From positions 1,054,001-1,118,000 of the forward strand of contig NZ_CP019327.1 of assembly GCF_001971705.1 (NCBI RefSeq): a stretch of DNA of 64,000 nt. Reading direction: 5' to 3'. The notes beneath the pieces were generated by a model. That model saw only the letters and a list, made by a program, of their open reading frames with translations, was not told where the DNA came from and made no database searches. The stretch is from Natronorubrum daqingense. Its GTDB lineage: Archaea > Halobacteriota > Halobacteria > Halobacteriales > Natrialbaceae. Position 1 is the first letter of the stretch, and every line of letters starts with the position of its first letter. Shown here in pieces: positions 22,452 through 27,906 of the stretch. A program made the position numbers and the translations under genes.

Positions 22452-23096
22452 ATGTTCGTCCTTGTCAACCTGAAGACCTATCCGTGCGATCCGGTCGCGG
22501 TCGCCGAAGCCGTTCGCGACGTCGACGAATCGACCGACGCCCGCCTCGCAGTTGCGCCGCAGGCGACCCACCTCGAGCGCGTGGCCGAGACGGGAGCTGA
22601 AACGTGGGCCCAACACGTCGATTCGATCGACCACGGGAGCAACACCGGCCAGACGCTGGCGGAATCCGTCGCGGACGCCGGTGCCGTCGGGACGTTGCTC
22701 AACCACTCCGAACGGCGGCTGAAGCTGGCCGATATCGACGGAGCTGTTCAGGCGGCAGAGCGTGCGGGCCTCGAGACGGTCGTCTGTGCGAACAATCCTG
22801 CACAGATCGGTGCCGCCGCGGCGCTCGGCCCCGACGCCGTCGCGGTCGAGCCGCCGGAACTGATCGGCACCGGGACGCCGGTCAGTCAGGCTGACCCGGA
22901 CGTCGTCGAGGATGCCGTCGATGCGGCCCAGCACGTCGACCGAGACGTGTCCGTTCTCTGCGGGGCGGGTATCAGTACCGGCGACGACGTCGTCGCAGCG
23001 GGCGACCTCGGTTCCGAGGGCGTGTTGCTCGCGAGCGGGGTCGCGAAAGCGGACGATCCGACGGCCGCCCTCGAGGACCTCGTCGAACCGCTGTAG
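22452..23096 (+). CDS. tpiA: Triose-phosphate isomerase
   Basis: 214 aa, the short archaeal form. Interconverts dihydroxyacetone phosphate and glyceraldehyde 3-phosphate. Active-site residues are present: Asn6 and Lys8 (VNLKTY), His85 in LLNHSERR, Glu133 in [12 protein letters not shown], and the phosphate loop GAGISTGDD. It is a single gene with short flanks. The first codon at 22452 puts NLK at the right depth in strand 1. Confidence 0.97.
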
Positions 23097-23190
23097 ACGA
23101 GCGTAGTGGGTCGATTGGATCGCCGGCGTCGTTCGACGCCACAGTTCCTCGAACCGATGGTTTTTCTCACTCGCGATGGGAGGTCGACGT

Positions 23191-23601
23191 ATGAGCGACG
23201 CTCGTCCCATCGAAGTAGCCCTCGAGAATCGACTGATGGGACAGGGAATCTACGTGGACGAGGTCACTCGTCTGCCACGGGCTTCGAACGAGGAGACGGC
23301 TGAAACGGGCGACATTTCCGACGGGGCTGGCCTCTCGATTTCCTACGAGACGGTCTCTCAGTCGAAACGGATCGACAGCGACGAGGTCGGCACCGTCGTC
23401 CGAACCGTCCTCGATATCGGTGCCGAACGCGAGTGGACGCCGGGACGACTCGAGGCGACCTCGCAGTCGACCGACGGCGATATCCGCGGTCGCTGGCACG
23501 TCGAAGCAGAGTGGTTCGACGAACTCGGCGTAGCGTTCGACGACCTCGAGTTCTCGGAGCGCGTCCTCGAGACGAGAGATCACAATTCTGTCACCGAGTA
23601 A
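23191..23601 (+). CDS. Conserved-looking protein of unknown function
   Basis: 136 aa from the ATG at 23191; an ATG at 23176 would add MGGRR. The protein is acidic and soluble, with a predicted alpha/beta pattern: VALENRLMGQGIYVDEV, LSISYETV, TVVRTVLDI, and GRWHVEAEWFDEL. The last block looks like a short strand-helix that could bind a ligand. I recognise no family. It lies 60 bases upstream of the TIR-domain gene on the same strand and could be co-transcribed. Confidence 0.65.
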   Translation: MSDARPIEVALENRLMGQGIYVDEVTRLPRASNEETAETGDISDGAGLSISYETVSQSKRIDSDEVGTVVRTVLDIGAEREWTPGRLEATSQSTDGDIRGRWHVEAEWFDELGVAFDDLEFSERVLETRDHNSVTE

Positions 23602-23663
23602 GTGATGTCGACGAGTAGGTAGATTAATGGTCTCACACTCGTGTTGTCGGTGTAGATACGCAG

Positions 23664-24275
23664 ATGGCCGGAGAACAGATCTACGTCTCACACGCACCTG
23701 CTGACCTCGAGCTCGTCCAGGAGTTGTTCTCGACGGTCAAGAATTTCCCCTTTGGAACACATATCGCGCTCGAGGAAGTCGAATCTGGTCGCTCTCGACA
23801 GCGACTCGAGGGCCGCCTCGCGAACAGCGACGTCGTCGTCGCGGTGCTCACGGCGGAATCGTCGACCAGCAGGTGGGTCAATCAGGAAGTCGGGTACGCA
23901 CTCGCAAAGGGGATTCCCGTGATCCCACTCGCCGACAGCGACCGCCATCTCGGCGGCTTTCTCGAGAACGCCGACAGCGTCGCGATCACTCGAGAGAATC
24001 CCTCGCGAACCATTTACGATCTGATCAGCCGACTCCGAAGCGAACTTGCACCACTCGGTGCGCTGTCCGTGCCGAATTGGTACATTCGATTCCCCTGTAC
24101 GATTCCGGACTGTGGCCACCCCGTGACCCTCGAGATCGAGCAAGACCAATCCAAGCTCTGGAAGCGATACGAACACGGGAAACTGCTGTCGTCGACGTGT
24201 GACGTCTGCGAGTCGACGTACTACTTCGATGCGGCGACGATCGGATACGTTCGCCGAGAAGACGGCATTCTCTAG
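23664..24275 (+). CDS. TIR-domain protein with C-terminal zinc ribbon
   Basis: 203 aa. Residues about 4-125 follow the TIR fold: IYVSHAPADLELVQEL (strand A/helix A), DVVVAVLTAESSTSRWVNQEVGYALAKGIPVIPL with the W-x3-E signature whose glutamate (Glu75) is the NAD-cleaving residue in TIR enzymes. Residues 140-203 contain a four-cysteine site (Cys145, Cys150, Cys179, Cys182) not found in ordinary TIR proteins. Prokaryotic TIR proteins commonly cleave NAD or make signals in anti-virus defence; no partner gene of a known system is adjacent. The family assignment is from motif only. Confidence 0.75.
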   Translation: MAGEQIYVSHAPADLELVQELFSTVKNFPFGTHIALEEVESGRSRQRLEGRLANSDVVVAVLTAESSTSRWVNQEVGYALAKGIPVIPLADSDRHLGGFLENADSVAITRENPSRTIYDLISRLRSELAPLGALSVPNWYIRFPCTIPDCGHPVTLEIEQDQSKLWKRYEHGKLLSSTCDVCESTYYFDAATIGYVRREDGIL

Positions 24276-24276
24276 T

Positions 24277-24981
24277 TCAGGCGTCTTTTTGAAGCCGTTC
24301 GTAGGCGTCCGTGACGAGTTGGAACGCCGAGCGACTCCCGCTCTTTCGGTCGGGATGGGCCCGTTTGACCTCGCGGTGGAACGCCGCACGAATTTCCTCG
24401 TCGCTCGCAGCGGGGTCGACGCTGAGCACCTCCCGAGCCTCCGACTTTCGCATTCCGATCGTTTTGACGATCCCGTTTTCTTTTGCGGTCTCGGTGCACG
24501 GCGGACAGAATCGCTCGCTTCGCCCGTCGATGGTGGTGATCTCGAAGCGTTCGGCGGTAACCCACTCGTTGCACTGCGTACAGAGCGTCTCGTCTTCGTC
24601 CGTCGACTCGGCGTGACCTCGAGTACGTGTGTCGTCTGCTGTGTGCGTCGACTCGTCGGCCTCGGAGGATGCGGACGTCGTCTTCGAGTCGGCCGCCGGC
24701 GCCTGCGCGACACACGTTGGACAGCACGTGAGGACGGTTCCGTCTTCGAGGACGACATCTTCGACTCGAGACGCGAGAATCGTGTCGGTGCAGCCGTCGC
24801 AGGTCCGACGTCGCTGGTCGATCGAAGAACACTTTCGAGCGGCCTCACGGGCGTGGGGCTCACAGCGAGGACAGCACGCGACCCTGTCGCCGTCGGGCAT
24901 CGTGATTGCCGTCAGCTCCTCGAGTGGGACCGTTCGGCCACACCCATCACAACCACCCTGACGGTCGTCGACCACTGCCAT
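24277..24981 (-). CDS. J-domain protein with three zinc ribbons
   Basis: 234 aa. Three four-cysteine sites occur in tandem: Cys11/14/37/40, Cys61/64/87/90 and Cys134/137/159/162, each with a beta-hairpin spacer of about 22 residues. A Ser/Thr/Asp-rich linker (about 95-130) separates the second and third. A C-terminal J domain (about 180-234) holds the HPD motif at residues 209-211 (KRAHPDRKSG), which stimulates Hsp70 ATPase. The usual DnaJ order is reversed and there are no G/F or substrate-binding regions, so it probably recruits DnaK to zinc-ribbon-bound clients. It ends two bases from the TIR gene's stop and is convergent to it. Confidence 0.8.
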   Translation of the reverse strand: MAVVDDRQGGCDGCGRTVPLEELTAITMPDGDRVACCPRCEPHAREAARKCSSIDQRRRTCDGCTDTILASRVEDVVLEDGTVLTCCPTCVAQAPAADSKTTSASSEADESTHTADDTRTRGHAESTDEDETLCTQCNEWVTAERFEITTIDGRSERFCPPCTETAKENGIVKTIGMRKSEAREVLSVDPAASDEEIRAAFHREVKRAHPDRKSGSRSAFQLVTDAYERLQKDA

Positions 24982-26478: not shown

Positions 26479-27906
26479 TTACTCCGCAGGTCTGACCTTG
26501 AACCCGTAGCGTGTCACGCCCTCTTGGGTGTAGACGCGTCGAATCGTCGTCTCGATCCGATCGCCGACGGCGAACGCATCGGGTGCTGCGTCAGTTCCCA
26601 TCGCCGCAATACTGGCCGTTTCGTCGCCATCTCCCGACTCGAGGGCGACGATTGCGGCCGCGTAGTCACCGGAACGACCCTGCTGCTCGGCGAACTCGGG
26701 TGGTGCACCGCCCTGTGAAATCGTCGTCACCGCCTCGATTTCTCCCTCGCCGGAGAGGTGAACTGGTTCGTACTCCTCGAGAGCGTTACAGTCCGCACAC
26801 GCTCCTTCCGGCGGGAACGCGAGCGAGCCACACTCGGGACAGCGGCCGGCCTCGAGGGTATAGCGCTGGGGAATCGACCGGTGCCACGAGGGGACGCTCA
26901 CGTACGCACCCCCGCCCGAGGGCGGACCGGTCGTGACGACACCACGTTGGCGCAGGTACTCCGCGTAGGACAGTGATTCGTCGCGCTCGAGTGTCGTCTC
27001 CGCGGGAACGTCTCCATCGACGTCGACGACGAAGGCGTCCGCACCCGCGCCGCTACCGTGGGAGACGCCGAGTATGCGCTCGTAGCCGTCCTCGAGCGCG
27101 CTGACCAGCGAGACGGGGACGCTCGCCGCGCCGAGGTCGCCGAGTTCGTGGACTGTTGCCGCTGCTTGGATCTCGTCCGTTCCGACGCCCGCCGCCCCCG
27201 CTGCGCGGTAGGGGAGTTTGCCGTCTGGTGCCTGAATCGCCACGGCCGTCGGATCGGGATCGACCTCGAGTCCGGAGACTGCCCCGCCGATCGTTTCGGT
27301 GAACGCCGACCGGTCGTACTGCGTGACGCCGAGTCCCTGCGTTGCGTCCTCGCCGGTCGCTCGGAATCGCGTCCCGGGGTACGGCGTCGCGTACTCGGCA
27401 CGGTCGACGATCTCGGCGGGCCCGTCTCGCTCGATGACGAACGCGGCTGCGCCAGCCCCGGCAGCGTGATCGATCCCGTCATCCGGGTCGCCCTGTGGTG
27501 CGTCGGCCGCGACGACGAGTCCGGTCGATGCCTCGGCCTCGAGGGCATCCATTCCGGCCCAAAGTGCGCGGGTTCCGGCCCGCGTGCTGCCCGTAAAGAC
27601 GTGTCGCGTGGCGGAGTCGGAGACCTCGAGCATGGCGCCGAGCCGTGCGGTGAGGTCCTCCTCTGCGAGGGGCGGTGTCGAGGACGCAAATGCGAGCCAG
27701 TCGACCGTCTCGGGGTCGACGTCGGCCGCCTCGAGCGCGCGGTCGGCGGCCTCGTAGGCCATCGTCAGCGCGTCTTCGTCGGCAGCGGCGACGGCCTTCT
27801 CGGTGACGCCGGACGCCTGGAACTGGCCCCAGGCGTCCTGAAACGCTTCCGCGCTGATCCGGAACCGGGGCGCGTACGCACCGACGCCGGTAATTGCCGC
27901 CGTCAT
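26479..27906 (-). CDS. HMG-CoA-synthase-like/DUF35 fusion protein, catalytic residues replaced
   Basis: 475 aa. Residues 1-345 follow the thiolase-fold pattern of archaeal HMG-CoA synthase; residues 350-475 are a DUF35 protein (zinc ribbon Cys356/Cys359/Cys370/Cys373, then an OB fold). The catalytic Cys of HMG-CoA synthase (in ACYAGT) is Thr108 here (GSTRAGT), the His (FHQP) appears to be Gln, and the active-site Glu is not seen in FASSTPP. So it is probably a structural partner rather than an enzyme. Its ATG overlaps the stop of the thiolase by one base (TGATG). In methanogens thiolase, HMG-CoA synthase and DUF35 form one complex. Confidence 0.85.
   Translation of the reverse strand: MTAAITGVGAYAPRFRISAEAFQDAWGQFQASGVTEKAVAAADEDALTMAYEAADRALEAADVDPETVDWLAFASSTPPLAEEDLTARLGAMLEVSDSATRHVFTGSTRAGTRALWAGMDALEAEASTGLVVAADAPQGDPDDGIDHAAGAGAAAFVIERDGPAEIVDRAEYATPYPGTRFRATGEDATQGLGVTQYDRSAFTETIGGAVSGLEVDPDPTAVAIQAPDGKLPYRAAGAAGVGTDEIQAAATVHELGDLGAASVPVSLVSALEDGYERILGVSHGSGAGADAFVVDVDGDVPAETTLERDESLSYAEYLRQRGVVTTGPPSGGGAYVSVPSWHRSIPQRYTLEAGRCPECGSLAFPPEGACADCNALEEYEPVHLSGEGEIEAVTTISQGGAPPEFAEQQGRSGDYAAAIVALESGDGDETASIAAMGTDAAPDAFAVGDRIETTIRRVYTQEGVTRYGFKVRPAE

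Follow-up and report, generated by a model that had tools for sequence, protein, structure and literature searches.

The 64,000-nucleotide stretch of Natronorubrum daqingense DNA analysed here (the window) carries, in order, ligB, hisC, adk, a CDP-alcohol phosphatidyltransferase gene, the gene for aMBF1, tpiA, a conserved orphan, a gene for a TIR-domain protein with a C-terminal four-cysteine module, here called TIR-ZnR, and a convergent J-domain gene (Table 1). The neighbours were named from Pfam, NCBIfam and the annotated syntenic record CP031304.1, in which the relative of TIR-ZnR already bears the annotation "TIR domain-containing protein". The TIR-ZnR reading frame begins with ATG and, as M1 is unchanged across all 110 intact haloarchaeal rows described below, its start is right. 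The orphan matched nothing in Pfam or PADLOC and nothing over the NCBIfam cut-off. In the J-domain protein, whose gene has been relocated in some genomes, the DnaJ domain is C-terminal and several CxxC motifs precede it.

Table 1. Features at and around the TIR-ZnR locus (positions within the window; locus counts refer to the 111 haloarchaeal loci)
Feature	Position	Strand	Basis
tpiA (triosephosphate isomerase)	22452..23096	+	Pfam TIM, 129.5 bits; upstream in 106/111 loci
Conserved orphan, 141 aa, between tpiA and the TIR gene	23176..23601	+	Same strand in 86/111 loci
TATA-like ATTAAT, beginning 41 nt before the ATG	23623..23628	+	Motif count in upstream regions
TIR-ZnR gene, 203 aa	23664..24275 (including stop codon)	+	ORF; Pfam TIR_2; 105/125 family genomes
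TIR core, residues 1-112, with H10, W71, E75	23664..23999	+	Pfam 6-92; structure matches; W71/E75 in 111/111
W71-x3-E75 motif, putative catalytic Glu	23874..23888	+	Sequence and alignment
Helix and linker, residues 113-138	24000..24077	+	AlphaFold2 helix 113-131; mean column conservation 0.853
Zinc-ribbon-like module, residues 139-200, C145-x4-C150-x28-C179-x2-C182	24078..24263	+	Cys conservation; hhalign homology
Convergent J-domain protein	24277..24981	-	Pfam DnaJ, 39.4 bits; downstream in 88/111 loci, median gap 24 nt
475-aa protein adjoining a thiolase gene	26479..27906	-	C-x2-C...C-x2-C in C-terminal part; named ACP synthase in CP031304.1

A TIR domain with a catalytic-type glutamate was what the sequence-only reading had recognised in this protein, and the profiles agree: residues 6-92 match Pfam TIR_2 (PF13676) with 41.5 bits against a cut-off of 28, residues 8-88 match ThsB_TIR (PF08937) with 31 bits against 21.2, and TIR_2 is matched by 30 of 30 members (E<=1) of a haloarchaeal alignment made from the window copy and 29 of 30 relatives' loci, the frameshifted L031 having been excluded. 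The N-terminal VSHAPxD and the W-x3-E, here W71-V-N-Q-E75, resemble TIR motifs. AbTir-type chains match the profile at E 0.001-0.004. An AlphaFold2 model based on the 30-row alignment (mean pLDDT 80.1, pTM 0.78), less confident in the first 50 residues (blocks at 64-74) than in residues 141-200 (83-92), is predicted to have the TIR fold that had been expected from the sequence, with SARM1 and SPARTA TIR as the best Foldseek matches (E 2.5e-6 to 5e-5) and ThsB, DNPH1 and NDT following near E 1e-3. VIA-align gave Z scores from 13.1 to 11.2 among the 50 matches listed. For the TIR part the closest structure among them was the SPARTA TIR (Z 13.1, 145 aligned, rmsd 3.5); one NDT reached 12.6 and SARM1-type TIRs about 11.5.

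Since NDT and DNPH1 structures, at Z about 12, score like TIRs, the fold cannot by itself separate the two groups, and it is the sequence profiles that do. A nucleotide N-glycosidase or deoxyribosyltransferase-like enzyme of the DNPH1/NDT/MilB type, as opposed to an NADase, would fit these structural scores, the match to PF05014 (nucleoside 2-deoxyribosyltransferase) and the appearance of a CMP N-glycosidase among the weak matches of the distant family (E 0.027); we nevertheless regard it as improbable, because PF05014 scores 23.2 bits, below its cut-off of 28.8, whereas TIR_2 is well above its own and both short motifs resemble those of TIRs.

Residue conservation was read from 111 haloarchaeal loci, comprising 104 of the 105 family genomes with the gene (G055, which holds a remnant, was omitted) and seven genomes from the wider order. 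W71 and E75 are unchanged in every row, as are V8, H10, N27, R45 and G77. The four cysteines that had been picked out from the sequence as a joined module (C145, C150, C179 and C182) are each present in 110 of the 111 rows, the sole miss being the frameshifted L081, and so in 110 of 110 intact copies. Both synonymous codons are in use at the conserved Cys and Glu positions. Conservation of this extent makes the motif and the cysteine pattern more than chance. Of the alignment columns, 24 show no variation at all across the 110 intact rows, and half of these (12) belong to the zinc part, which is 62 residues long. The helix-linker has the highest mean column conservation of the three parts of the protein. 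Ratios of dN/dS against four relatives (0.107, 0.11, 0.144 and 0.182, four pairs) indicate that the gene is under purifying selection.

The cysteine pairs, C-x4-C and C-x2-C, are invariant and in the AlphaFold2 model strands surround both, which is the two-hairpin arrangement of a zinc ribbon; generic zinc-ribbon profiles match weakly in distant relatives. Assignment to a known fold was rejected: the C-terminal 87 residues (114-200) modelled alone (pLDDT 74.8) found nothing in Foldseek below E 0.69, and the best VIA Z was 2.5. The assignment therefore rests on the cysteine pattern and the generic profiles, which suggest a zinc ribbon with a putative metal site. When the class was searched with the module, 96 of 391 genomes matched (E<=0.01), 94 of them at the TIR gene, and the two matches away from it were borderline (E 0.008 and 0.009).

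In its own genome the TIR-ZnR gene is the single TIR_2 match. In the family, 105 of 125 genomes carry it, spread over 27 of 29 genera, and the named relatives are mostly Natrialbaceae, with Halostella as well. There is one match apiece in 104 carriers and, in the remaining one, two pieces of a single frameshifted copy. At the level of the order 90 of 392 genomes carry the gene, which adds two families (f7 and f10). The gene is dispensable, as can be seen from its absence from 20 of the 125 family genomes, its presence in only 32 of 80 genomes of the distant family f19 discussed below, the frameshift in L081, which is the only short copy among the 111 loci read, and the remnant in L096. A search of 50,697 phage records found no TIR-ZnR match, viral contigs held one partial TIR match, and plasmid records held one distant TIR and one syntenic copy, the latter on a 987-kb replicon together with tpiA and ligB. 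That "plasmid" (CP031304.1, L175, of Natrinema thermotolerans A29) bears ligB, hisC, adk and tpiA, which suggests either a second chromosome or a wrong label. Judged from these comparisons, TIR-ZnR is an old, largely vertically inherited, single-copy archaeal family.

The surroundings of the gene are similarly stable. Both tpiA and the J-domain gene flank it in 86 of the 111 loci, and tpiA is not upstream in five (L064, L065, L137, L148 and L138, the last a short contig). L064 has it between a pyridine-nucleotide oxidoreductase gene and succinyl-CoA ligase genes; a 121-residue reading frame there (L064:3615-3980), which has no Pfam match and may be spurious, shares 4 nt with the 3' end of TIR-ZnR and is followed by the succinyl-CoA ligase genes. 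Fourteen of the 20 family genomes that lack the gene were examined, of which all 14 have tpiA, 10 have the orphan and none has the TIR gene; in one, L084, the orphan and J-domain matches are 48 nt apart. The J-domain protein was matched in 97 of 125 genomes, a tally that includes weak J-domain-only matches. Its gene is retained at the locus in two of the 14 TIR-lacking genomes, lies about 146 kb from the TIR gene in G028, and is unmatched in the seven genomes of genus g14, where the TIR gene is present. We do not claim a functional link between these two genes, as the pattern is mostly one of co-deletion of neighbours. In 19 of the 30 regions upstream of TIR-ZnR, ATTAAT occurs in the 60 nt nearest the start codon, 34-41 nt from the ATG, compared with a mean of 0.68 and a maximum of 4 in 500 rounds of shuffling; this enrichment makes it very likely that the gene has its own TATA-like promoter.

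Relatives also exist far outside the haloarchaea. A search of the phylum with the haloarchaeal alignment matched 134 of 392 genomes (E<=0.001), many over the TIR part only. Nineteen of 20 distant loci encode proteins of 184-192 residues in which a TIR domain is followed by W-L-[KR]-x-x-C-P-x-C and C-x-[YF]-C, and the other, L195, encodes a plain TIR. The glutamate and the four cysteines are invariant in 19 of 19 rows and W71 is not conserved, so that, on these alignments, the full WxxxE motif is not common to the whole family. Comparison of the haloarchaeal and distant alignments by hhalign gave a probability of 99.4 over 180 columns; for the zinc modules alone it was 82.2 (E 1e-5), with controls at 1.9 (J-domain protein) and 1.5 (reversed sequences). 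A profile built from the distant relatives in turn hits the window protein (E 6.4e-20, covering 3-181 of 186). With homologous zinc modules on both sides, the fusion of TIR and zinc module looks inherited, not repeated.

These full-length homologues, new here, occur in two further families of the phylum: f33, where 40 of 41 genomes carry the gene, including 33 of 33 good ones, across 11 of 11 genera, and f19, in which the carriers comprise 31 of 62 good genomes and 7 of 14 genera. From the gene for a FilR1 methanogenesis regulator that adjoins one distant copy (L194), and from a TIR_2 control match in Methanosarcina acetivorans, we infer that both are probably methanogens. In four of seven f33 loci the gene comes first in a conserved cluster interpreted as RNA methyltransferase-L3-L4-L23-L2, of which, in L191, the first three genes are confirmed by Pfam and L23 and L2 were assigned by eye. 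TIR-ZnR lies directly before the RNA methyltransferase-L3-L4 genes in L182, L188, L191 and L192, and in L191 an upstream 174-residue reading frame shares 4 nt with the start of the TIR gene. Other genes near the distant relatives, among them RuBisCO, an AAA ATPase and what we take from its sequence to be Thi4, were each found in few loci and judged incidental. A 49-row tree, built from 30 of the 111 haloarchaeal rows together with the 19 distant ones, splits the two clades by a fully supported, very long branch, too long to date their link or to show which way descent ran.

These observations bear directly on the idea that TIR-ZnR might be a one-gene defence effector, which the sequence-only reading had raised while remarking that no known partner is nearby. 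The remark was right: the gene stands in the window among tpiA, the orphan and the J-domain gene, and PADLOC, run on ten neighbours, returned only generic HTH matches of aMBF1. The idea itself fares less well in this context, which is a housekeeping locus, with tpiA upstream almost throughout and no defence gene beside it. A survey of homologues' neighbourhoods, suggested at the time as a search for defence islands, came upon housekeeping loci, which is half of what had been named as evidence against the idea, and not upon the islands. The genomic comparisons leave a mobile one-gene defence effector unsupported and weaken that reading. The zinc ribbon may, as the sequence-only reading guessed, sense nucleic acid or redox state. 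Defence genes can also pass vertically, and a single-gene antiviral TIR NADase that causes abortive infection when viral nucleic acid or protein triggers it through the zinc ribbon would agree with the nearness to ThsB models (PADLOC E 5e-7, besides the ThsB_TIR match), the retained glutamate and the patchy losses. We think this unlikely, given the fixed locus, the vertical single copy, the near silence of the phage and viral records and the PADLOC result, and given that all 33 good f33 genomes carry the gene, since presence in every good genome of a family is unusual for defence genes.

We propose instead that TIR-ZnR is a core-genome family of regulated, glutamate-dependent N-glycosidases of the NAD type that serve cell-intrinsic physiology or stress and not abortive infection from a mobile gene, a proposal to which we give an even chance of being correct. 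The TIR domain would act on NAD+ or an NAD-like nucleotide, either free or as an RNA cap, while the zinc ribbon would gate the enzyme and anchor the molecule on its partner, either a nucleic acid or another protein; the highly conserved helix-linker would tie the two parts together. Cleavage of NAD+ by TIRs has precedent (PMC7075850). E75 is present in every row, 111 haloarchaeal and 19 distant, and this invariance was counted in favour of a glutamate-dependent enzyme; counted against the proposal were the loss of W71 in the 19 distant relatives, the dispensability of the gene and a zinc module without a solved fold. The same loss of W71 would suit a non-enzymatic scaffold, in which the TIR domain self-assembles, the zinc ribbon binds and the glutamate is structural, but the glutamate is strictly invariant in both clades, as catalysis would predict, and we give the scaffold little credence.

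A special case of the N-glycosidase proposal is that the TIR domain strips nicotinamide from NAD-capped RNA bound by the zinc ribbon. TIR proteins including the archaeal TcpA remove nicotinamide from such RNA, according to PMC10937652, and NAD-RNA occurs in Haloferax volcanii, according to PMC10663502; some distant relatives, moreover, head a ribosomal-protein cluster. PMC10937652 also reports that active TIRs tend toward a positive surface near the site, whereas the mean charge per residue here is -0.06 in the TIR part and -0.006 in the zinc part; this lack of positive excess was counted against RNA binding, and the special case seems to us rather improbable. A broader version would make TIR-ZnR an ancient housekeeping TIR of archaea, found in haloarchaea and probably in methanogens, which processes NAD, or RNA capped with it, at a site linked to nucleic acids or the ribosome, and which is possibly the stock of some defence TIRs. 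This is conceivable, if doubtful.

A TIR domain in a prokaryote tends to be taken, almost automatically, as the mark of an immune gene. From its sequence and distribution, TIR-ZnR is better described as a core-genome archaeal family with a putative enzyme role. Were the ancient housekeeping version true, it would show TIR enzymes to have a core physiological role outside immunity. A TIR family that is near-universal in one archaeal family (f33), lies among housekeeping genes and has kept its catalytic-type glutamate over very long divergence raises the question of what TIR enzymes do without infection. Haloarchaea and methanogens are genetically accessible groups in which such a non-immune role could be probed. 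Titles and abstract openings in the open-licence literature on archaeal TIR domains do not describe the family, which may be reported elsewhere, and it is unmentioned in passages of PMC7159879 and PMC7075850.

Among known systems, Thoeris ThsB likewise has a TIR domain with a conserved glutamate; TIR-ZnR differs in its fixed housekeeping locus, its C-terminal zinc module and the lack of an adjoining ThsA-type effector among its window neighbours. A genome-wide search for STALD (ThsA) gave 0 of 41 matches, but all 14 controls were likewise silent and the result was set aside. SPARTA TIR-APAZ provides the closest structural match to the TIR part, but its TIR-APAZ goes with a short Argonaute, whereas TIR-ZnR has 203 residues only, carries the four-cysteine module after the TIR, and none of its neighbours examined encodes an Argonaute. 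Nucleoside 2-deoxyribosyltransferase and DNPH1 share a similar fold and a glutamate at the aligned position, from which TIR-ZnR is set apart by a Pfam score below the cut-off and by its TIR motifs. With the stand-alone TIR NADases AbTir and archaeal TcpA it has in common the TIR fold and the catalytic-type glutamate, and it is distinguished from them by its putative C-terminal zinc ribbon and its core-genome inheritance.
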